A stretch of 64,000 nt of DNA from [Bacillus] selenitireducens MLS10. Its GTDB lineage: Bacteria; Bacillota; Bacilli; Bacillales; Salisediminibacteriaceae. How positions within the stretch are numbered: the stretch's first letter is position 1; each line of letters opens with the position of its first letter. The notes under the pieces were generated by a model. It saw only the letters and a list, made by a program, of their open reading frames with translations. It did not search any database and was not told where the DNA came from. Shown here one piece after another: positions 10,502-19,641 of this stretch. Where the stretch lies: contig NC_014219.1 of the NCBI RefSeq assembly GCF_000093085.1, positions 3,526,384 to 3,590,383 of the forward strand, given 5' to 3'. A program made the translations under genes and the position numbers.

Positions 10502-11098
10502 TTATTGATCCGCGTGTTTCCCTAAAATCACCTTTGCTTCAAAGAGGCGCTGCAACGACGTAATAATCTCCACCGCCAGGAAAATCAGACCGATCAGAAT
10601 CAGGTGATCGGTGAAGATAATCATAAGAGAAAAGAGAATAAAGCCTTCTGTCCGCTCAGCAAGACCGGACTGGTAATAAAAACTCTTCACACCCTGCTTC
10701 TCAGATACGGCACCGACCGTCAAAAAGATGGTCATGCAATAAATTATCGACACACTCAAAAGGAGAAGCACCCACATCGCATCCGGATAGCGGAATGCAA
10801 GACCGAGAATCACACTGATCTCAACGAGCCGGTCAAAACTTACATCAAGGACCGTTCCAAAAGACGACGGCTTTGTTTTTCTTGCCATCGTGCCGTCGAC
10901 CACATCGAGAAAACCTGAAAACCAGAGAACCAAAAGGGCAATCAGCGTCTGTTCAAAATAAACGAACAGCCCCGACGTCACCCCGATCAAAAAGGAAATG
11001 ACCGTTACGTTATTCGCCGTCAGTCCCCACTTCAAAAACGTATCTGCCGAAACATTCACAATCGGCTGCACATAGCGTCTCCCTCTCGTATCAAGCAT
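10502..11098 (-). CDS. CDP-alcohol phosphatidyltransferase family protein (YnjF-like)
   Basis: Integral membrane enzyme, 198 residues, with the CDP-OH-P transferase signature DGx2ARx8Gx3Dx3D, seen as DGTMARKTKPSSFGTVLDVSFD. These Asp residues bind the metal and CDP. It should transfer a phosphatidyl group from CDP-diacylglycerol to an alcohol or sugar acceptor, which is not known. It is not the housekeeping PgsA, which normally lies near cinA-recA. It is the last gene of a leftward operon, overlapping the ATPase gene by 8 nt. Its association with a YnjBCD-like transporter matches ynjF in E. coli, so it probably serves that conserved cluster rather than general lipid synthesis. Confidence 0.82.
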   Translation of the reverse strand: MLDTRGRRYVQPIVNVSADTFLKWGLTANNVTVISFLIGVTSGLFVYFEQTLIALLVLWFSGFLDVVDGTMARKTKPSSFGTVLDVSFDRLVEISVILGLAFRYPDAMWVLLLLSVSIIYCMTIFLTVGAVSEKQGVKSFYYQSGLAERTEGFILFSLMIIFTDHLILIGLIFLAVEIITSLQRLFEAKVILGKHADQ

Positions 11099-12056
11099 CT
11101 GTTACACGTCCCTTCTTCCGGACGAGGACGACCCTGTCCCCGTCGTAAAACGTCCGATCATCGTGAAGGACGATAGACTGCCGGATATCAGGCAAGTCAA
11201 CAAAGTAAAACTGCAGACCATACTTCATCATCGCATATTTCACCCGTCCCCCTTCAAGAACAGCGGGATCATTCGTCCGCTGATCATGCTCTTTTTCCAT
11301 CTGTACATCGCCTGCAGGAATAAAACCGCCGTGCAAAAAGATGCCCTCTGAGAACATCTCTGCCACTTCCCGGTTCTCCGGGTTGCGGTACACCTCTTCA
11401 GGAACACCAATCTGCTGGAACGTTCCGCCTTTCATAACGGCTACCTGATCACCCATCACCATCGCTTCTTCCCGGTCATGGGTCACGAACAGGGCCGTCA
11501 CACCTTCCTGTTTCAAAAAATCCCGGACCCAGGTACGAATGCTGACCCGGAGTTCGGGATCCAGACTCGAAAACGGTTCATCGAGCAAAATAAGGGCCGG
11601 GTTTAAAATCAGCGCCCTTGCGAGTGATACACGCTGCTGCTGACCGCCGGAGAGCTGATTCGGATACCGGTCCGCATAAGCCTCGAGATCCACTTTTTCG
11701 AGAAGCGCCATCCCTCTTCTAATCCGTTCATCCTTTTTCACTTTATCTTTTCCGTATTTCAGTCCGTACGTGATGTTTTCAAGGATCGTAAAATGAGGAA
11801 AGAGCAATGGCTGCTGAAACATCAGCACGACCGGCCGATGCTCGGCTTTGACTGTCGTCATATCCTCTCCCTGAATAAGGAGCTGCCCGTCCGTAAAGGA
11901 AGACAGGCCTGCAATCGAACGGAGCAGCGTGGACTTGCCGCAGCCGGAAGGACCAACAAGACTCACGATGCTTCCCTGTTCCACATTCATATTGATCCGG
12001 TGGAAGACTTCAGTTTCCCCGAACCGTTTTGATACATTCATCAGTTGCATGAGCAA
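11091..12056 (-). CDS. ABC transporter ATP-binding protein (YnjD-like)
   Basis: Cytoplasmic ATPase of a small-solute importer, 321 residues. It shows Walker A GPSGCGKST, Q-loop MFQQPLLFPHFT, signature LSGGQQQRVSLARAL, Walker B LILLDEPFSSLD and the H-loop VTHDREEA. A C-terminal extension of about 100 residues looks like a TOBE-type regulatory domain, as in PotA/FbpC/YnjD ATPases. The start is a TTG at 12056, 10 nt from AAAGGAG; the ATG at 12050 is spaced too far (16 nt). It lies 17 nt downstream of permease gene 12074-12874. Confidence 0.86.
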   Translation of the reverse strand: MLMQLMNVSKRFGETEVFHRINMNVEQGSIVSLVGPSGCGKSTLLRSIAGLSSFTDGQLLIQGEDMTTVKAEHRPVVLMFQQPLLFPHFTILENITYGLKYGKDKVKKDERIRRGMALLEKVDLEAYADRYPNQLSGGQQQRVSLARALILNPALILLDEPFSSLDPELRVSIRTWVRDFLKQEGVTALFVTHDREEAMVMGDQVAVMKGGTFQQIGVPEEVYRNPENREVAEMFSEGIFLHGGFIPAGDVQMEKEHDQRTNDPAVLEGGRVKYAMMKYGLQFYFVDLPDIRQSIVLHDDRTFYDGDRVVLVRKKGRVTDA

Positions 12057-12073
12057 ATGAAACCCGCTCCTTT

Positions 12074-12874
12074 CTATGGCCGCTGCAGAATTGTCATATA
12101 AAGACGGAGCAGCCCTTCAAATACAATCAGAAAGACGATTGGCAACAAGGCAAACAGGACTGAAAATCCTGCGACAACAGCGCCGTCACCGCTTGTGAAA
12201 TACGGATAATAGATCATCGGCAAGGTCATAATCCGACCGCCGCCGATAATCAGCGTCAGCACATACTGACTGAGGGAAATGACAAAGACGAGAACGGCCA
12301 TACTCCGGATACTCGGAATAATCTGCGGAACGAGCATCGTCCAAAAAAGCCGCCAACGGTTGACGCCCAAGGTGCTGCACTGTTCCTCCCAATCCGGGGA
12401 CAACCGGTCAAAACCGGCCTTCATCACCCTTACGGCATAGGGGATCGTCGGCATCAGATGAATCAGGATGACACCCGTTGCCGAATCAGCAAGCCCGAGC
12501 CGGATCATGGTCAAATGCATCCCCATGGCAATGGCAAGCACCGGAACGAGGATCGGCAGCATCAGGACTGCTTCGATAAACGGCTTTCCTCTGAAGCGGT
12601 AACGGCTTAACCCGTATGCCGCCGGGACAGCCAGCATAAAATTCAGGATCACGACAACGGTTGCGATAAAGATCGTGACCGCAATCGCCCAGATAATATC
12701 CGAATCCCTGAAGATCACTTCCCATGCGCGGAAGCTGATCGTTTCCGGATAGATGTCAGGCCATGACCAGCGAAAACTGATGCTCCTCGCTGTCATTAAC
12801 AGAAGTGGTGCCACAAAGATCAGAAACAGCACCAGAAACCAGAACACTTTCGATACGCGCCGGGGAATGTTCAT
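12074..12874 (-). CDS. ABC transporter permease, second half of a YnjC-like pair
   Basis: A 266-residue binding-protein-dependent permease with six likely membrane helices and the EAA-loop EEQCSTLGVNRWRLFWTMLV near residue 180. The ATG at 12874 follows AAGGGGGGAACAGCA and overlaps the stop of the upstream permease gene in an ATGA junction. An alternative upstream start (12901) would add 9 residues. As I recall, E. coli YnjC is a single 511-residue polypeptide with both permease halves fused; here the halves are separate genes. The substrate is unknown. Confidence 0.86.
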   Translation of the reverse strand: MNIPRRVSKVFWFLVLFLIFVAPLLLMTARSISFRWSWPDIYPETISFRAWEVIFRDSDIIWAIAVTIFIATVVVILNFMLAVPAAYGLSRYRFRGKPFIEAVLMLPILVPVLAIAMGMHLTMIRLGLADSATGVILIHLMPTIPYAVRVMKAGFDRLSPDWEEQCSTLGVNRWRLFWTMLVPQIIPSIRSMAVLVFVISLSQYVLTLIIGGGRIMTLPMIYYPYFTSGDGAVVAGFSVLFALLPIVFLIVFEGLLRLYMTILQRP

Positions 12875-13761
12875 TGCTGTTCCCCCCTTCTTGTCGCCCA
12901 TTTACTCTTCCACCTCGACGTAAAGCGGAGAACGAAAAAGGCCGACACGATGGCAAACAGTGAAATCAGCACCATCATCGCCTGTGCGAGGGGTCTGTTG
13001 ACCCAGGCAGACTGATAAAACCATTCATACGCAAGAATCGGCAGCATCTTTGGAAAAGTCACACCAAGAAGAGCCGGCACTTCAAAGGCACCGAGGACAA
13101 ACACAAACAGGATCAGGAACGTTTCCAGTGACACCGGGAATACCCAGGGGAATTCCACGGTCCGAAAGACGGTGAAGGAATTACCGCCCAGCGTCCGGCT
13201 CACGTCCTCATAGCGGAGATCCATCTCCTGATAGACCGGCAGCATCATAAGGAGTACAAACGGTATCTCTTTCCATACATACGTCAGGATCACCCCGATA
13301 TAGAGCGGATCGTTCACGAGAACCGGAAACTGACCGATCGAATCCAAGAGCCCGATTTGAAAAAAGAGTGACGAGAACCATCCTGTCGGCGCAAAAATAA
13401 TATAAATCAAGTAAGCCGCCACAAAGTGCGGAATAATCATCGGCAGCCAGGCGACAAATTTCCAGTGATCATAGCGGAACACCCGGATGAGACGCCTCGT
13501 CATCCAGATCCCGATCACCAGTGAAATCAGAGTCGAAGAAAAGGCGACCCAGACGCTGATCCCGAGAGACCGGAGGAAGCTCCCGTGAGCGAGAAGCGTC
13601 TGGTAATTTGCCCAGAAAGCGTCCCCCTCTTCCCGGGAGACGCTTCCCTGTGCTGCCTGAAAGAGGCCGTAACCGACAAAAAACGAAATGACGATCAATG
13701 CCGGTGAAACAAAACCAATCCCTTTCAGCCAGGACGGTACGGGTTTATTGGACAAGCTCAC
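12871..13761 (-). CDS. ABC transporter permease, first half of a YnjC-like pair
   Basis: Membrane subunit of about 296 residues. After a short N-terminus it has helix WLKGIGFVSPALIVISFFVG, a periplasm-facing segment with QGSVSREEGDAFWAN, then five helices and the EAA-loop YEDVSRTLGGNSFTVFRTVEFPW. The reading frame extends to an ATG at 13833 deep within the preceding gene. A GTG at 13761 (or TTG at 13755), overlapping the stop of the binding-protein gene by about 17 nt, is more plausible but lacks a strong ribosome site, so the start is tentative. Translational coupling to the binding protein is likely. Confidence 0.82.
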   Translation of the reverse strand: MSLSNKPVPSWLKGIGFVSPALIVISFFVGYGLFQAAQGSVSREEGDAFWANYQTLLAHGSFLRSLGISVWVAFSSTLISLVIGIWMTRRLIRVFRYDHWKFVAWLPMIIPHFVAAYLIYIIFAPTGWFSSLFFQIGLLDSIGQFPVLVNDPLYIGVILTYVWKEIPFVLLMMLPVYQEMDLRYEDVSRTLGGNSFTVFRTVEFPWVFPVSLETFLILFVFVLGAFEVPALLGVTFPKMLPILAYEWFYQSAWVNRPLAQAMMVLISLFAIVSAFFVLRFTSRWKSKWATRRGEQQ

Positions 13762-14953
13762 GTTCCCACTGCTCAATGACCCAGTCAAAATAACGGGAAT
13801 CGAGCTCAGGAAGGATGTCGTCCTGACTGACAAAAGCAGGACCGGTCAGCGCTTCCGCTTCCTCAAGCTGCTCCTCCGTTAACGCATCCGGGTTCAGCAC
13901 ATGGCCTTCTCCCCACATGGACGGGTCGAGTTTTTTGATTTGTGCCTCCGGTGACAGCATGAAGTTGATCGCAACGAGTGCCGCTTCAGGCTCTGTTGCA
14001 TTAAACGGAACGGACAGATAATGGGTATTCCCGATTGAGCCCGGTTCGAGGACGAGGGTCTCTGTATTTTCCGGGAAGATGCCGTCTTCGATCTTACTGA
14101 CAGCACGGTGTTCATTGAAGCCCATGGCAAAAGCGACTTCTCCGTCTGCGAACATCTGATCAAGCTGAGCGTTGGAATCCGGGTAGGTCTGCCCCTCTCT
14201 CCAAAGTGAGTCTTTGAATGAGCCGAGCACGTCCCATACTTCGGATCCATGCTCTTCAAGCCAGGCCTCATTGTATTCTGCGAGGTCAGCCGGATCGTCC
14301 GCCACATGGTACATCACATGCCGGACAAACGTATTACCCGTGAAATCATTGACATTCGGGTATGTGAATAACCCCGGGTTTTCAATGGACCATTCAATCA
14401 GTTCTTCAATGCTGCCTGGCATCTCATCCACGAGGTCCGGATTCGCCTGAATGGTGAACTGCACATTTCCCCACGGCGCTTCATGCCCTTCGATCGGTGT
14501 CCCTGTATCATAATTGACAAACGGCACGTCGGTTCCGATATACTCATGAACATTCGGTAAAATCTCAAGGAAGTCTCCGTACAGGAGATCGTTATCCTTG
14601 GCTGTTCGGAAATTCTCGGCATTGATCCATAGAAGGTCCGCACCGCCGTTCATTTCACCGGCCTCACGCTCGGTCATCAGTTTATTCAGAAAATCCGGCG
14701 CATCCATCGGATAACGGTTTAATGTCACATCGTATTCTTCAAGAAGACGGGGCGCGATGAAATCATCCATATACTGATTGATCCCGTCGTCTCCTCCCCA
14801 CATATAAATGCCGATTTCTTTCCCTTCGGCTTCACTTACAATCTCATCCCAGGAAGCGTCCTGCAACGTTTCCACTTCCACCTGCGGTTCCGCATCATCC
14901 CCGCATGCCGAAAGCATCGGGATCACCGCCGCCACTGTCAACCATTTCTTCAT
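13745..14953 (-). CDS. ABC transporter substrate-binding lipoprotein (YnjB family)
   Basis: Exported receptor of the 10.5-15 kb transporter, 402 residues, with a short signal and lipobox LSAC (Cys17). The segment ADLLWINAENFRTAKDNDLL, the EGHEAPWGNVQFT motif and the IYMWGGDDGINQYMD N-terminal region are the features I recognise from E. coli YnjB, a family of unassigned substrate placed among iron/thiamine/polyamine-type binding proteins. The mature protein is very acidic. It is the first gene of the leftward transporter operon. A terminator upstream (15127-15160) separates it from the redox gene set, so it probably has its own promoter in 14954-15126, though I could not define one. Confidence 0.86.
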   Translation of the reverse strand: MKKWLTVAAVIPMLSACGDDAEPQVEVETLQDASWDEIVSEAEGKEIGIYMWGGDDGINQYMDDFIAPRLLEEYDVTLNRYPMDAPDFLNKLMTEREAGEMNGGADLLWINAENFRTAKDNDLLYGDFLEILPNVHEYIGTDVPFVNYDTGTPIEGHEAPWGNVQFTIQANPDLVDEMPGSIEELIEWSIENPGLFTYPNVNDFTGNTFVRHVMYHVADDPADLAEYNEAWLEEHGSEVWDVLGSFKDSLWREGQTYPDSNAQLDQMFADGEVAFAMGFNEHRAVSKIEDGIFPENTETLVLEPGSIGNTHYLSVPFNATEPEAALVAINFMLSPEAQIKKLDPSMWGEGHVLNPDALTEEQLEEAEALTGPAFVSQDDILPELDSRYFDWVIEQWERELVQ

Positions 14954-15126
14954 TCTTCTTTCCCCTTTCAGCAGTTCTCAGTTGTGATTATTACCTGATA
15001 ACCTTTTTATTTCATCACTTATCATATCATTTATTGCTTGAATCCGCTGTATGCACTCTTACATTTTATTGACTAAGTTGTTAAATGAGCGTGAAATCAG
15101 CACGCGAACACAGATGGTATCGTTTG

Positions 15127-15160
15127 AAAAGAAAAGAGCGCTGGAAGGCTCCCAACGCTC
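15127..15160 (-). terminator. Terminator after the TVP38-type gene
   Basis: Hairpin GAGCG..TGG / CCC..CGCTC around loop AAGGCT. On the minus strand it is followed by TTTTCTTTTC. It lies 16 nt after the stop codon at 15176. Confidence 0.7.
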
Positions 15161-15175
15161 ATTCGGTCATTCTTA

Positions 15176-15874
15176 TCAAGACGTCTGCTTCAGCTCGTCC
15201 ATATCGATCCCCTTCTTCTTCGCCCAGATCTTTGGTACGAGAGAAAGCAAGAAGAGAATGATACCGGCTGCGGCAAACTGAAGAACCAGTGTCATCGATA
15301 CCCCTTCGCGGGCGATCTGACCGGCCATGAAGGCATAGATCATGGCACCTGGTGCCATTGTGATCCCCGAAACGATGGTGAACTTCCAGAAGCCAAGGCT
15401 TGTCAGTCCGTACACGTAGTTTTGCACGTTGTATGGGAACACCGGTACAAAGCGTGTCAGGATGAGGAAGCTGACGCCGTTTTCCTCAACCCCTTTGTCG
15501 ATTTTGTCAAAGATCGGATTCCCTTTGAACTTTTTCATGATCATGTCACGGGCAAGATACTTCGCCACAAGGAAAGCTGCCGCTGCCCCGAGGGTCGCAC
15601 CCATCAGTGACAGGATACCGCCGAGAACCGGACCGAATGCCACACCGCCGACGATCGGGAAGATCGCGCCCGGCAAGAGGAATACGGCAGAGGCCATAAA
15701 CACGAGGACGAAGATCACATAGCCCATCACACCGAACCCTTCAATAAACTCCTGCATTGCTGAAATACTCTGGATCTTTTCAAGTGCACCTGTCTGCCAT
15801 GCGATGGTGAAAACCAACGCGATGACTGCAACGAGACCGATCAGTTTCATTGCTGATTTATTTTTTGCGCTCAT
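15176..15874 (-). CDS. TVP38/TMEM64 (DedA-superfamily) membrane protein, YdjX-like
   Basis: A 232-residue inner membrane protein of the SNARE-associated (VTT) domain family. Helix 1 is at residues 9-28; the conserved re-entrant segment includes FLLPGAIFPIVGGVAFGPVLG (about 65-85) and the signature LTRFVPVFPYNVQNYVYGLT (about 140-160). Some DedA-superfamily members move lipids (undecaprenyl phosphate, phospholipid scrambling); others have been linked to selenite or ion uptake. Here it is the last gene of an operon with a rhodanese and redox proteins, the context of ydjX/ydjZ in E. coli, so a role in the sulfur-related cluster is likelier than general lipid recycling. Confidence 0.88.
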   Translation of the reverse strand: MSAKNKSAMKLIGLVAVIALVFTIAWQTGALEKIQSISAMQEFIEGFGVMGYVIFVLVFMASAVFLLPGAIFPIVGGVAFGPVLGGILSLMGATLGAAAAFLVAKYLARDMIMKKFKGNPIFDKIDKGVEENGVSFLILTRFVPVFPYNVQNYVYGLTSLGFWKFTIVSGITMAPGAMIYAFMAGQIAREGVSMTLVLQFAAAGIILFLLSLVPKIWAKKKGIDMDELKQTS

Positions 15875-15928
15875 ACGCTCATCTCCTTTAATGGGGTAAT
15901 ACGTGTATTAAATATTCTGAACTGTTGA

Positions 15929-16915
15929 TTAAAAATCACCGTTCTCAGTGCGGTCAATAACATCCTGGTTCTCAAGCTCATACGCTTCGTAAGACCATTC
16001 AATCCATGATCCGTCATAGTTCAGCACATCGTCATAACCAAGGCCATACGTCAGTAACAACCATGTGTAAGAAGAGCGGACACCGGACTGACAGTAAGGG
16101 ATGAGGGTTTCGCCACTCTCAATCATATCACCGTAAAGCGCTTCGAGTTCACTCATTGATACGGCCGTTCCGTCTTCTGCAACAGCTTCAGTCCAGTTAA
16201 TATATTCTGCACCTGCAATTTTACCAGGACCGAATGCGCCTGCAAGTGTTGTGCTGCCGTCTTCTTCATCGCCACCGCGGGTATCAATCAAAATGCCTTC
16301 CCCATCAACGGCTGCGATAACGTCTTCAAGTTCTGCGTTGAACGCTGCCGGATTATAATCAGGTGCCACATACTCGGTTTTTTCACGATCCCCAAGTTCA
16401 AGCGGGTTACCGGTATCGTAGCCCTGGCCGATCCAGGCATTGATTCCGCCGTCAAGGAAACGGACATCATCGTGTCCGAGCATTTTCAGCTGCCAGAAGA
16501 CGCGTGCCGAGTCGTGCTGTGCGTTCGCTGCATAGGTCACGACCGTCGTTTCCGGTGTGACACCGAAAGAGCTTAACAGTGCTTCCACTTCTTCTTTTTC
16601 ATTCGCCATACCATCGTATGGGTAAAGCTCCGTTCCGGAGTAATCAGGACGCCAGATTTCAAAGGAGCCCGGAATCGCGCCGCCTCTTTCACTCATTGTA
16701 CCAATCACGACAACATCTTCGTCTGTTTCCATCAGATCTTTCAGTTCGGTCGCTGTGATGAACGCTTCCGGAACGGCATATTCTGTAATTTTCTCCTGCT
16801 GTGCATCCATGTCCACTTCCTGTGCTTCAATACCGGTTACGGAAAAATAAACGATTACTGCAATGATGGCAACTGCTACTGTACTGAAGCCGGTGATTTT
16901 CCATTTTTTACTCAT
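15929..16915 (-). CDS. Membrane-anchored exported tandem rhodanese (YnjE-like sulfurtransferase)
   Basis: Sulfurtransferase of 328 residues with an N-terminal membrane segment (about residues 8-26) and no evident cleavage site or lipobox, so probably tethered outside the membrane. Two rhodanese domains are visible. In the first (about 50-170) the active-site loop reads YAANAQHDSAR, with Ala129 where the catalytic Cys should be, so it is inactive and structural. In the second (about 190-320) the loop is YCQSGVR with Cys275 intact. It should carry a persulfide sulfur from thiosulfate or a related donor. It lies between the HdrB-like gene (119-nt leader with two CRP/FNR-like sites) and the TVP38 gene, matching the ynjE association of E. 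coli. Confidence 0.88.
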   Translation of the reverse strand: MSKKWKITGFSTVAVAIIAVIVYFSVTGIEAQEVDMDAQQEKITEYAVPEAFITATELKDLMETDEDVVVIGTMSERGGAIPGSFEIWRPDYSGTELYPYDGMANEKEEVEALLSSFGVTPETTVVTYAANAQHDSARVFWQLKMLGHDDVRFLDGGINAWIGQGYDTGNPLELGDREKTEYVAPDYNPAAFNAELEDVIAAVDGEGILIDTRGGDEEDGSTTLAGAFGPGKIAGAEYINWTEAVAEDGTAVSMSELEALYGDMIESGETLIPYCQSGVRSSYTWLLLTYGLGYDDVLNYDGSWIEWSYEAYELENQDVIDRTENGDF

Positions 16916-16949
16916 GTAAAACGCCTCCTTTAATAGTTGGGTAGTCTTT

Positions 16950-16983
16950 TATGATGAACGTCACACTTGTTAAAATATTCACA
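16950..16983. promoter_or_regulatory. Tandem CRP/FNR-type half-palindromes upstream of the rhodanese gene
   Basis: Two adjacent 16-bp sites: 16950-16965 reads TATGATGAACGTCACA and 16968-16983 reads TGTTAAAATATTCACA. Each matches TGTGA-N6-TCACA at 9 of 10 fixed positions. Their centres are 18 bp apart and lie about 40-65 bp upstream of the rhodanese start codon. Confidence 0.45.
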
Positions 16984-16999
16984 TAGAATTTCTTTTTCC

Positions 17000-17028
17000 A
17001 GGCACCCATCCCCTTGACGGGTGCCTGA
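17000..17028 (-). other. Stem-loop between the HdrB-like and rhodanese genes
   Basis: Perfect 9-bp arms CAGGCACCC and GGGTGCCTG around an 11-nt loop, 6 nt after the stop at 17035. On the minus strand it is followed by GAAAAAG rather than a T-tract, so it is a poor intrinsic terminator. It could stabilise or process the upstream mRNA, or stop transcription with a factor. Confidence 0.5.
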
Positions 17029-17034
17029 TGACAA

Positions 17035-17823
17035 TCAGTTTTTGACGACTTGCTTGACGATCCGCTTCGACTTGTAGCGGTTAATCCATGCTCCTGCCGG
17101 TTTTGACAAGACGTCTTCCGGCGGGGCTGTATCCGAATGAACAACCGGTCCCCAGAGAAGATCAAGGATGTGGAAGGCTTTCTTGCCGACCTTCATCATC
17201 GACGCTCTGCAAGCGGCGCAGTATACAACAACGTGATCTGTTGTGAAATCATCCGCACGGCGCTGCATGACGCGTGTGGCAAGGTCCGGATTCGCAGGGA
17301 CAATCATGCCACCAAAGCCGCAACAGCGTGCATTTTCTCTTGAATGTTCCGATTCTTCCACCCGGTAACCGAGCTCTTTCAAAACCCAGCGGACACCGTC
17401 CTGAAGCTCTTTTTCATAACGGGTCGAACAGGAATCGTGAATCCCGAAGACGACATCGCTGTCTTTCGCTTTCCCGCGGAGTTCTTCAGGAATGCCGATT
17501 TTCGGAAGAAGTGTCCAGAGAGACTCTGCCTTTGTGGTTTCACTCGTTTCGTTGATTGTTTTATAGCAGTTTTGACAGGCCACGATGATCGTATCGATTC
17601 CGATGTCATCCATGTCCTGCTGCAGGCCGGCAAAACGCTCCTTGAACTTCTCTTCCTGTCCCAGCGCCTTCGTCCCTTTTCCACAGCATTTCTGCACGCC
17701 ACCCAGATCCGGGTAAACGGTCTTCAGATATTCCATCGTCTTTTTCACGCCATCCGGTGTATAGGATGGCAGTGAACATCCTGGCATGAACCCTTTTCGT
17801 TCGGCAGTTACAGTCATGGTCAT
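17035..17823 (-). CDS. HdrB-like (Fe-S)-binding protein with two CCG domains
   Basis: A soluble 262-residue protein with two full cysteine-rich CCG motifs: Cys16, Cys46-Cys47, Cys83/Cys86 and Cys132, Cys167-Cys168 (CCGFGG), Cys202/Cys205. This is the arrangement of heterodisulfide reductase subunit B, which uses such motifs for noncubane [4Fe-4S] clusters that cleave disulfides; GlpC and LutA/LldE are other relatives. Its ATG overlaps the stop of the FAD oxidoreductase gene in an ATGA junction, so the two are almost certainly coupled in translation and function. I infer that it receives electrons from that flavoprotein and reduces a disulfide, persulfide or sulfur-oxyanion substrate. The substrate is unknown. 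Confidence 0.85.
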   Translation of the reverse strand: MTMTVTAERKGFMPGCSLPSYTPDGVKKTMEYLKTVYPDLGGVQKCCGKGTKALGQEEKFKERFAGLQQDMDDIGIDTIIVACQNCYKTINETSETTKAESLWTLLPKIGIPEELRGKAKDSDVVFGIHDSCSTRYEKELQDGVRWVLKELGYRVEESEHSRENARCCGFGGMIVPANPDLATRVMQRRADDFTTDHVVVYCAACRASMMKVGKKAFHILDLLWGPVVHSDTAPPEDVLSKPAGAWINRYKSKRIVKQVVKN

Positions 17824-19604
17824 CTGCCTCCTTTTGCTTTAGTCGTAAACAGTTTGGAGAAACCGAGTTTCTGGTGCATCTCGATCGCTTTATGGCCTTC
17901 CATCGGTGACTTCCCATCATTGGCAAGGATGAAATCCTTACGCATCGCCATGAACGTCTCCCCAATCGGATAGTCGTTCGGACATACATGGGAACAGCCG
18001 CCGCACACATTACAGGAATATGGGACGATTGGCTCGATGCCGTCTTTAGCGAGAAACTCACCGAAGATATCTTGCGGACATTCGCCGAAGTCGTTCATCA
18101 TCAGGCATTCATCCATACAGAGCTTGCACTCACACTGGAGACAGCGGCCTGCTTCTTGCTGAGCCTGGGCATCGGTATAACCGAGATCCACCGCTTTGAA
18201 GTCGCGCTTACGCTCGTCTGCCGGACGGTGGTTACCTGACGTTCTCGGCAGGTTTTCAGTGCCTTTCGGGAGCGGCACATTGAGTGTTGTTTCGAAGCTG
18301 TATTCATATTTCAGGTTTCTTGCCTCTGTCAGATCCACCTGGTTCAAGAAACGGTCCACGCTCTTCGCGGCTTTCTGACCGTAGGCCATTGCCTGAACGA
18401 CGATCGCCGTACCTGCTGCATCTCCTGCAACGAAGACGTTCGGTACGCTTGTTGACAGGGTTTCTTTGTCGACGACGTAGCGTCCGCCGCCACCCTGTGC
18501 GACCATGCCTTCTGTCAGATCCTGAACGCGCTGTCCGGTTGCAAAAACAACCGTATCCACTTCGATTTCTTTGCGCTCATCACCGAAGCTCGGTGCAAAG
18601 TTGCCATCCTCATCAAAGACTGACAGGACATTCTTCAGAACCATTCCGCGAACGCGGCCGTTCTCATCTTTCAAAATTTCTTCAGTGGCCCAGCTGTTCA
18701 GGAACATGACGTCTTCTTCCTGTGACTCAACGATTTCCTGTTCACTTGCCGGGAGCTGTTCAAGGCTCTCAAGGCTGATGAGGCTGACCTCGTCTGCGCC
18801 AATTCTCCAGGAGGAGCGTGCACAGTCCATCGCCACATCCCCACCGCCGATGACGGCGATTTTCTTACCTGCCGCTTTTGAAGCATGTGTCAGGCTGATT
18901 TCTTTCAGGTAGTCCACTGCGTGCATCACACCTTCAGCATCGGCTCCTGCTACAGGAGGCATTCCGCCGAGATGGGCGCCGTTTGCGATGATGACGGCAT
19001 CGAAGTCTTGTTGCAGGGATTCGAAGCTGATGTCTTTTCCGACTTCAACCCCCATTCGGAACTTGACGCCAAGATCTTCGAGGTAGCTGTATTCGAAGTC
19101 GATGACTTCTCTCGGGAGTCTGTACTCCGGAATCCCGACTCTCATCATGCCGCCGACCACTTCAAGCTTTTCATAGATGACGACGTCGTGTCCGGCTTTT
19201 CTCAGATCAATGGCGGACTGGGCACCTGCCGGCCCTGCACCGATGATGGCCACTTTCTTCCCTGTAGAGCCCTTCACCTGAATATCCCACTTTGTCTTGT
19301 CATCTGCCTTCTCTGCTGCGTAGCGTTTCAGAGCTGCCACGGATAAGGCTTCATTGAACTCGGTGTTTCGTCTGCAGTCTGTTTCACACGGGTGTGCACA
19401 GATCCGGCCGAGTGTGTTTGGAAGGAATAACTTTTCCCGAATCGTCTCGAGAGCCCCTTCCACATCACCTTCACCAATCTGTCGAATGTATTTCTTCACA
19501 TCCGTGTGCATGGGACAGGCTGCGGTACAAAATGCTTCTTCATGACCCATACAACCGTCCGTAATGGATTTCGCGTTATCGTAAATTGATTGTCTGAATT
19601 CCAT
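17820..19604 (-). CDS. FeS/FAD NAD(P)-dependent oxidoreductase (GltD/DPYD-like)
   Basis: A 594-residue electron-transfer flavoprotein related to the small subunit of glutamate synthase and the N-terminal half of dihydropyrimidine dehydrogenase. The N-terminal helical FeS domain has Cys18, Cys26, Cys30, Cys69, Cys73 and Cys77. The FAD-binding GAGPAG is at 122-127, the NAD(P)-binding GGGDVAMD near 252-259, and the second FAD motif VFVAGDAAG near 395. An unusual C-terminal extension has about eight further cysteines (RCLQCECKLCMDEC and CNVCGGCSHVCP), enough for two [4Fe-4S] clusters. No glutamate synthase large subunit is nearby; instead it is fused in operon with the HdrB-like protein. It is the first gene of the operon; ATG 19604 follows AAGGAGAGGTG. 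Confidence 0.88.
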   Translation of the reverse strand: MEFRQSIYDNAKSITDGCMGHEEAFCTAACPMHTDVKKYIRQIGEGDVEGALETIREKLFLPNTLGRICAHPCETDCRRNTEFNEALSVAALKRYAAEKADDKTKWDIQVKGSTGKKVAIIGAGPAGAQSAIDLRKAGHDVVIYEKLEVVGGMMRVGIPEYRLPREVIDFEYSYLEDLGVKFRMGVEVGKDISFESLQQDFDAVIIANGAHLGGMPPVAGADAEGVMHAVDYLKEISLTHASKAAGKKIAVIGGGDVAMDCARSSWRIGADEVSLISLESLEQLPASEQEIVESQEEDVMFLNSWATEEILKDENGRVRGMVLKNVLSVFDEDGNFAPSFGDERKEIEVDTVVFATGQRVQDLTEGMVAQGGGGRYVVDKETLSTSVPNVFVAGDAAGTAIVVQAMAYGQKAAKSVDRFLNQVDLTEARNLKYEYSFETTLNVPLPKGTENLPRTSGNHRPADERKRDFKAVDLGYTDAQAQQEAGRCLQCECKLCMDECLMMNDFGECPQDIFGEFLAKDGIEPIVPYSCNVCGGCSHVCPNDYPIGETFMAMRKDFILANDGKSPMEGHKAIEMHQKLGFSKLFTTKAKGGR

Positions 19605-19625: not shown

Positions 19626-19641
19626 TGTGACTCTATTCACA
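19626..19641. promoter_or_regulatory. Perfect CRP/FNR-family palindrome
   Basis: TGTGACTCTATTCACA fits TGTGA-N6-TCACA exactly, the site class used by Bacillus Fnr and other CRP/FNR proteins. It ends 22 nt before the ATG of the FeS/FAD oxidoreductase gene, immediately next to the ribosome site. That position suits repression or roadblock better than class II activation. Confidence 0.5.

Follow-up and report, generated by a model that had tools for sequence, protein, structure and literature searches.

The stretch of DNA analysed here, referred to as the window, comprises 64,000 nucleotides of [Bacillus] selenitireducens MLS10 (NC_014219.1, positions 3,526,384 to 3,590,383) and contains two overlapping minus-strand genes encoding a flavoprotein and a protein with two CCG cysteine motifs, which together head a conserved nine-gene neighbourhood (10502-19604; hereafter the cassette). 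An initial annotation had placed both open reading frames (ORFs) at these positions, on this strand and with an ATGA overlap, as confirmed here. The parts of the pair are as follows (aa, amino acids; Fe-S, iron-sulfur).

17820-19604, minus strand: flavoprotein, 594 aa (Pfam Fer4_20, Pyr_redox_2 and Fer4_17)
Flavoprotein aa ~12-103: GltD-like N-terminal Fe-S domain (Pfam Fer4_20)
Flavoprotein aa ~116-420: FAD/NAD(P) Rossmann domains (Pfam Pyr_redox_2)
Flavoprotein aa ~480-560: HdrC-like dicluster domain, C-terminal (Pfam Fer4_17)
17820-17823, minus strand: ATGA overlap of 4 nucleotides between flavoprotein stop and CCG start, translational coupling
17035-17823, minus strand: CCG protein, 262 aa, presumed catalytic or electron-exit subunit (Pfam CCG, two stretches)

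The flavoprotein and CCG protein as one unit

Both the domains of the flavoprotein and its nearest solved structures, which belong to the NfnABC/StnABC/NfnL/GltD group, agree with its first assignment as a GltD-family NAD(P)H module, while its scores lie below the GltD cut-offs (299 against 471.75 for TIGR01316; 253 against 483 for TIGR01318). Its N-terminal domain contains the six cysteines originally counted (18, 26, 30, 69, 73 and 77), whereas the C-terminal part has ten (488, 491, 493, 496, 500, 509, 531, 534, 537 and 541) rather than about eight, and all of these are invariant across 15 relatives, except for the nearly invariant Cys509; the relatives aligned for this protein, like the 16 aligned for the CCG protein, derive from Bacilli, Clostridia, Fusobacteriota and Vibrionaceae. 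The C-terminal cysteines are part of an HdrC-like dicluster domain with the sequence CKLCMDECLMMNDF...YSCNVCGGCSHVCPND...AIEMHQKLGFSKLF, so that the pair, which had been described as lacking both HdrA and HdrC, carries an HdrC-like component fused to its flavoprotein; the absence of HdrA stands, the flavoprotein of this operon being of the GltD type. The same kind of dicluster domain is fused N-terminal of the CCG protein in Sporosalibacterium (L034) and Alkaliphilus (L035), at loci without a GltD-type gene, and at another locus (L076) it is encoded by an ORF of its own (129 aa) adjoining the CCG gene. Because the placement of this domain differs among these loci, the unit is to be seen as a GltD-like flavoprotein plus HdrC-like and HdrB-like modules, with gene boundaries that vary by lineage.

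With regard to the electron donor, GltD-type enzymes bind the phosphate of NADP through a YRR motif, which is found in the second Rossmann fold of the aligned NADP-linked homologs (e.g. VTIIYRRTIDEMPA). The flavoprotein reads VSLISLESLEQLPA at this position, and its residues L278-E279 are invariant in 15/15 relatives. Since this invariant Leu-Glu stands where the homologs have YRR, the sequence suggests that the donor is NADH rather than NADPH, which narrows the original proposal of NAD(P)H.

The CCG protein has cysteines at positions 16/46/47/83/86 and 132/167/168/202/205, exactly as first listed, and no others; all ten are invariant among its relatives, and they make up two complete motifs, C-29-CC-35-CxxC and C-34-CC-33-CxxC, whose spacing is presumably slightly below the usual HdrB consensus. 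Two such motifs arose in only 5 of 20,000 composition shuffles of the protein. Its AlphaFold2 (AF2) model (pLDDT 88, pTM 0.86) matched LutA (Z 18.7), EtfD (16.8) and HdrB (16.5 and 15.7), a fold search that leaves these three unseparated as the likeness of the modelled protein; matches to racemase and LacI-like folds were set aside as a common alpha/beta arrangement. In a maximum-likelihood tree of CCG proteins, the window protein forms one clade with HdrC-CCG proteins and members of NCBIfam NF045663 (support 99/97), apart from a separate HdrB clade (100/99) and from another group holding LutA, GlpC, GlcF and HdrD-like proteins, the outgroups, including the LutA/GlpC/GlcF rows, being on long branches that leave their exact order unsure and the placement not firm. 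A grouping with LutA/GlpC, named at the outset as the outcome that would speak against an HdrB-like role, is thus not seen, and of the HdrB likeness first proposed the two complete motifs hold while membership of the well-supported HdrB clade does not. The nearest characterised models are LdhH and TfrB, ahead of HdrB and LutA. To judge from these sequence comparisons, the protein lies outside the HdrB family and yet may work in an HdrB-like manner.

That the two proteins form a complex is well supported. Good ribosome-binding sites precede both ORFs (AAAAAGGAGAGGTGATC and AAAAGGAGGCAG), and the two products match consecutive parts of NF045663, with scores (251.2 bits for the flavoprotein and 206.6 bits for the CCG protein) that do not reach its cut-off of 530 bits. 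Single chains of 840-888 aa with the order GltD-HdrC-CCG occur in the same cassette in Propionigenium maris (L032) and in Clostridia (L071, L072, L088-L093), the Propionigenium fusion scoring 514.6 bits against the same model, and in most split copies the GltD-HdrC gene directly adjoins the CCG gene or shares a few bases with it. Because the CCG tree places split copies within a grade of fusions (supports 93/95 and 94/88), the topology suggests that an ancestral fusion underwent fission and that the window pair is a split fusion in which translational coupling was kept. Across 42 loci, the GltD and CCG parts have pairwise distances with a correlation of 0.89, compared with a permutation maximum of 0.37, such distance correlations being inflated throughout by kinship of the organisms. 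The natural fusions, the translational coupling and this correlation bear out the early view that the pair is one functional unit.

The cassette and its distribution

The seven further genes of the cassette and two associated sequence elements are listed below.

19626-19641, no strand: palindrome TGTGA-N6-TCACA, resembling an Fnr/Rex/CRP-type operator, 22-37 bp ahead of the ATG of the flavoprotein gene
15929-16915, minus strand: two-domain rhodanese with N-terminal membrane anchor (Pfam Rhodanese, twice; TST-type structures match)
15176-15874, minus strand: VTT-domain (TVP38/DedA superfamily) membrane protein, YdjX-like (Pfam VTT_dom; 40% identity to E. coli YdjX)
15136-15160, minus strand: stem-loop resembling a terminator, separating the VTT gene from the ABC genes (11-pair stem and T-rich tail; consensus match only)
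13745-14953, minus strand: ABC solute-binding lipoprotein, YnjB subfamily (NF008633, 386.5 bits, cut-off 203; 38% identity to E. coli YnjB)
12871-13833, minus strand: ABC permease 1 (Pfam BPD_transp_1)
12074-12901, minus strand: ABC permease 2, YnjC-like half (Pfam BPD_transp_1; matches half of E. coli YnjC)
11091-12056, minus strand: ABC ATPase, YnjD-like (Pfam ABC_tran; 35% identity to YnjD)
10502-11098, minus strand: CDP-alcohol phosphatidyltransferase family membrane protein, YnjF-like (Pfam CDP-OH_P_transf; 28% identity to YnjF)

The neighbouring rhodanese on which a sulfur context had been based is real, with a single cysteine, Cys275, located within the active loop CQSGVR; the sulfur context is upheld, whereas one rhodanese is not the whole of it, the cassette being far larger. 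Permease 1 is called from a TTG within the YnjB gene (89-nucleotide overlap), and its real start is probably downstream. Comparison of the YnjB-type protein with the Protein Data Bank by sequence gave no match and so no hint of a ligand. The palindrome is the sole exact match to TGTGA-N6-TCACA in the 64 kb (0.07 expected), and it is also present upstream of the orthologous gene in other Bacilli loci, exactly at L009, L010, L012 and L026 and with one mismatch at L011. Because it lies so near the ATG, too close for a classic Fnr activator, it could be the operator of a Rex-type repressor, which would fit as well as an Fnr activator or better.

A survey of 28 loci and 40 further regions returned the rhodanese, the VTT-domain protein, YnjB, one or more permeases, the ATPase and the CDP-alcohol phosphatidyltransferase as recurrent companions of the pair. 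The membrane-anchored rhodanese, the YdjX-type VTT protein, the YnjB-C-C-D importer and YnjF are found repeatedly in Bacilli, Clostridia, Fusobacteriota and Vibrionaceae, with a patchy distribution, the CCG gene being present in 7/299 genomes of the order. CCG distances correlate with those of the rhodanese (0.84) and of the VTT protein (0.85). At one locus (L032:8832-10376), a single protein combines a rhodanese with a TVP38-like membrane domain of the VTT type, linking the two families directly. At three loci (L020, L025 and L028), all clostridial and without the remaining cassette genes, a small conserved protein of 110-120 aa, for which NCBIfam gave no match, is encoded upstream of the flavoprotein (at about 5.4-6.1 kb).

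Proposed function and alternatives

Several lines of evidence bear on the substrate. The cassette rhodaneses are probably extracytoplasmic and active, because 41/41 of their sequences have a hydrophobic segment at the N-terminus and keep the CxxxxR loop intact. Vibrionaceae cassettes are accompanied by a divergent two-component pair that scores best against the models for TtrS (363, cut-off 750) and TtrR (211, cut-off 290), a sensor class in which sensors for thiosulfate and for tetrathionate have been proven (PMC5408782). Fused-type clostridial cassettes (L071, L072, L088-L093) contain paired half-size genes for transporters of the YedE/TsuA family, which is named for selenium as often as for thiosulfate, and just upstream of the Propionigenium cassette a rhodanese is fused to a CsoR-family repressor (L032:3485-4108). 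The CsoR-family domain of this fusion, as judged by eye, has its cysteines and misses the usual second-site histidine, and the protein looks like a sulfane-sulfur sensor. SsuA-like/sulfonate-type ABC genes adjoin the pair at L025. Because of the rhodaneses, the TtrS/TtrR-like pair, the YedE/TsuA transporters, the rhodanese-CsoR fusion and the SsuA-like genes, we favour a cassette chemistry based on sulfane sulfur or on a chalcogen compound chemically like it.

It is proposed, tentatively and at somewhat less than an even chance, that the pair is a cytosolic complex, a split GltD-HdrC-CCG enzyme acting as an NADH-linked S-S reductase that serves the conserved cassette. NADH would reduce the FAD of the GltD-like domain, from which electrons would pass to the N-terminal Fe-S clusters of the flavoprotein, then to the HdrC-like domain with its two [4Fe-4S] clusters and last to two CCG-bound clusters, the putative site where the S-S bond of a persulfide, a mixed disulfide or some other form of sulfane sulfur would be reduced; this path is drawn by analogy with the protein families. 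The membrane-anchored extracytoplasmic rhodanese would take up sulfane sulfur or hand it on, the VTT protein and the YnjB-type ABC importer would move substrate across the membrane, and the S-S substrate would reach the CCG subunit through this rhodanese/VTT/ABC part of the cassette. Observation provides the architecture, the invariance of the cofactor cysteines, the natural fusions, the inheritance linked with rhodanese and VTT and the recurrence in multiple phyla; from there we infer cofactor occupancy, NADH specificity, chemical substrate and reductive direction. The scheme does not account for the membership of a CDP-alcohol phosphatidyltransferase in the set, or elsewhere of sugar/nucleotidyl transferase-like genes.

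A broader reading, which we regard as speculative and rather unlikely, is that the cassette encodes an undescribed pathway in which rhodanese, VTT protein and ABC importer feed sulfane sulfur or a sulfur metabolite to an NADH:S-S oxidoreductase free of HdrA, and that E. coli ydjXYZ-ynjABCDEF descends from such a cassette through loss of the redox enzyme. Apart from this reading, the pair and its cassette connect an orphan E. coli cluster, one induced under anaerobic conditions, with a redox enzyme that recurs and with regulators responsive to sulfur, which gives the cluster a testable function. They also indicate that a GltD-type flavoprotein can take the place of HdrA in driving an HdrC-HdrB pair, with split and fused forms both found in nature, and they provide a sulfane-sulfur context for a membrane protein of the VTT/DedA family, which is mostly discussed in terms of lipid transport. 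The two genes are a variant of the CCG/HdrCB kind, and their context is more interesting than they are alone.

A number of observations weigh against an S-S reductase serving this cassette. E. coli YnjE is periplasmic and acts only poorly on thiosulfate and 3-mercaptopyruvate (PMC10215317). LutA and EtfD, whose CCG chemistry does not involve disulfides, match the fold as well as HdrB does, and the AF2 model of the L032 fusion (pTM 0.60), from which the GltD part alone was matched in a fold search, places its domains unreliably and was left unused for the interface. The GltD domain is missing from some cassettes (L034, L035, L073-L076), because of which NADH is not a universal donor. CCG distances do not track those of YnjB (0.006), in agreement with the stem-loop that separates flavoprotein, CCG protein, rhodanese and VTT protein from the ABC genes. 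Finally, true NF045663 fusions adjoin a protein of ~908 aa that reads as a [2Fe-2S]/molybdenum hydroxylase (L058:5132-7855, L061:10349-13075); with this unrelated second partner, the GltD-HdrC-CCG module could be an electron carrier of general use.

Several of these points also suit the main alternative, a complex that runs in reverse, oxidising thiols to a disulfide or persulfide with reduction of NAD+, or that exchanges the electrons of NADH with another cassette component such as a membrane carrier. CCG proteins transfer electrons in LutABC, EtfD, TfrB and the sulfur-oxidising Hdr-like system, and the equal nearness of the fold to LutA, EtfD and HdrB, the thiol-oxidising TfrB among the closest characterised models, the hydroxylase-like partner of the NF045663 fusions and the cassettes devoid of flavoprotein are all in keeping with such a role. 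We nevertheless consider it unlikely, though worth serious attention, as no recurrent cytochrome or quinone-binding partner appears in the cassette tables and the activation of the E. coli homologs by FNR (PMC3688515) better suits a reductive anaerobic role. Handling of selenite or tellurite, whereby the cassette would import or reduce oxyanions of selenium or tellurium, or the adducts of these with sulfur, appears improbable: the cassette rhodaneses match the ExtH selenite/tellurite model only weakly, far under its cut-off, and the YedE-family names point as often to selenium as to thiosulfate, but ordinary Vibrio and Salipaludibacillus are among the carriers, SelD is lacking in the three Vibrionaceae carriers searched, so that selenium assimilation is not required, and rhodanese and TVP38 go unmentioned in a survey of selenium in Anaerobacillus. 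In favour of this reading counts that the source organism, Salisediminibacterium selenitireducens MLS10, is a selenite respirer.

Slightly more improbable still is a role of the redox pair in making or remodelling a modified lipid or sugar, in which an ABC-imported alcohol or sugar would be attached by YnjF, or by TIGR04282/TIGR04283 proteins and a kinase, and thiolated by the sulfur genes. YnjF retains an intact catalytic motif at all 32 loci with relatives (32/32), and where it is missing, TIGR04282/TIGR04283 proteins (above cut-off), an APH-type kinase and a nucleoside hydrolase substitute; against this, ArsS (TIGR04167), the hallmark of arsenosugar synthesis, is found in 0/35 carriers, and the distance correlation of CCG with YnjF is weak (0.36). 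We know of no lipid product of the cassette. Genes of the two 'arsenosugar' glycosyltransferase families TIGR04283 and TIGR04282 occur together with an APH-type kinase, and in most cases also with a nucleoside hydrolase, at L032:11476-14684, L074, L075, L077 and L090, and seem to be mutually exclusive with YnjF among cassette loci.

Comparisons of carriers with hand-picked, roughly matched non-carriers led other routes to be dropped. Arsenosugar synthesis, prompted by TIGR04282/TIGR04283, fell with the absence of ArsS, and coupling to the AsrABC sulfite reductase with the distribution of AsrC (5/35 carriers versus 4/35 non-carriers). Dependence on selenophosphate was likewise discarded, SelD being present in 32/35 carriers, one of which is possibly counted twice (G184 and G694 share SelD places), versus 25/35 non-carriers, and missing from the three Vibrionaceae carriers searched.

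Comparison with known systems

Among flavoproteins, NfnL, StnB, NfnA and GltD share the Fer4_20 and FAD/NAD(P) architecture of the window protein, which differs in its own HdrC-like C-terminus and in the invariant Leu-Glu in place of YRR; its partner is a CCG protein, whereas theirs are glutamate synthase or hydrogenase-type subunits. HdrABC/HdrDE and TfrB resemble the pair in combining a dicluster (HdrC-like) with a two-CCG (HdrB-like) module, and TfrB and HdrD are HdrC-CCG fusions such as occur among its relatives; however, the window has a GltD-type flavoprotein in place of HdrA, and the CCG protein, which has two complete CCG motifs in common with HdrB, falls outside the HdrB clade. To our knowledge, coenzymes M and B (CoM/CoB) are not expected in bacteria carrying the GltD-HdrC-CCG module. 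LutA, GlpC, GlcF and EtfD have a two-CCG fold like that modelled for the window protein but a separate tree position and a different partner. NF045663 (pyridine nucleotide-disulfide oxidoreductase/dicluster-binding protein, diclust_near_Sec) shares the GltD-HdrC-CCG order and the CCG clade with the pair; unlike the latter, its members are single chains of ~780 aa with no rhodanese, VTT or Ynj genes alongside.

As for the wider cassette, TtrSR and ThsSR comprise a PhnD-like sensor kinase and a FixJ/LuxR-type regulator, as found beside the Vibrionaceae cassettes, whose pair, given its sub-cut-off scores, is not TtrSR proper; the window is without such a pair. A close known counterpart is E. coli ydjXYZ-ynjABCDEF, in which YdjX, YnjB, YnjC, YnjD, the rhodanese YnjE and YnjF are homologous to window genes. 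Its ydjXYZ-ynjABCD and ynjE genes are directly activated by FNR (PMC3688515), and a search of the ynjBCD/ydjXYZ literature returned papers on regulation and the rhodanese only, with no cluster function found. The E. coli cluster lacks the flavoprotein and CCG genes and has YdjY, YdjZ and YnjA; in a comparison with E. coli K-12, YdjY and YnjA had no match among the cassette genes of the window, and at the Sporosalibacterium locus (L034) YdjY and a YdjZ-like protein are encoded beside the HdrC-CCG gene.

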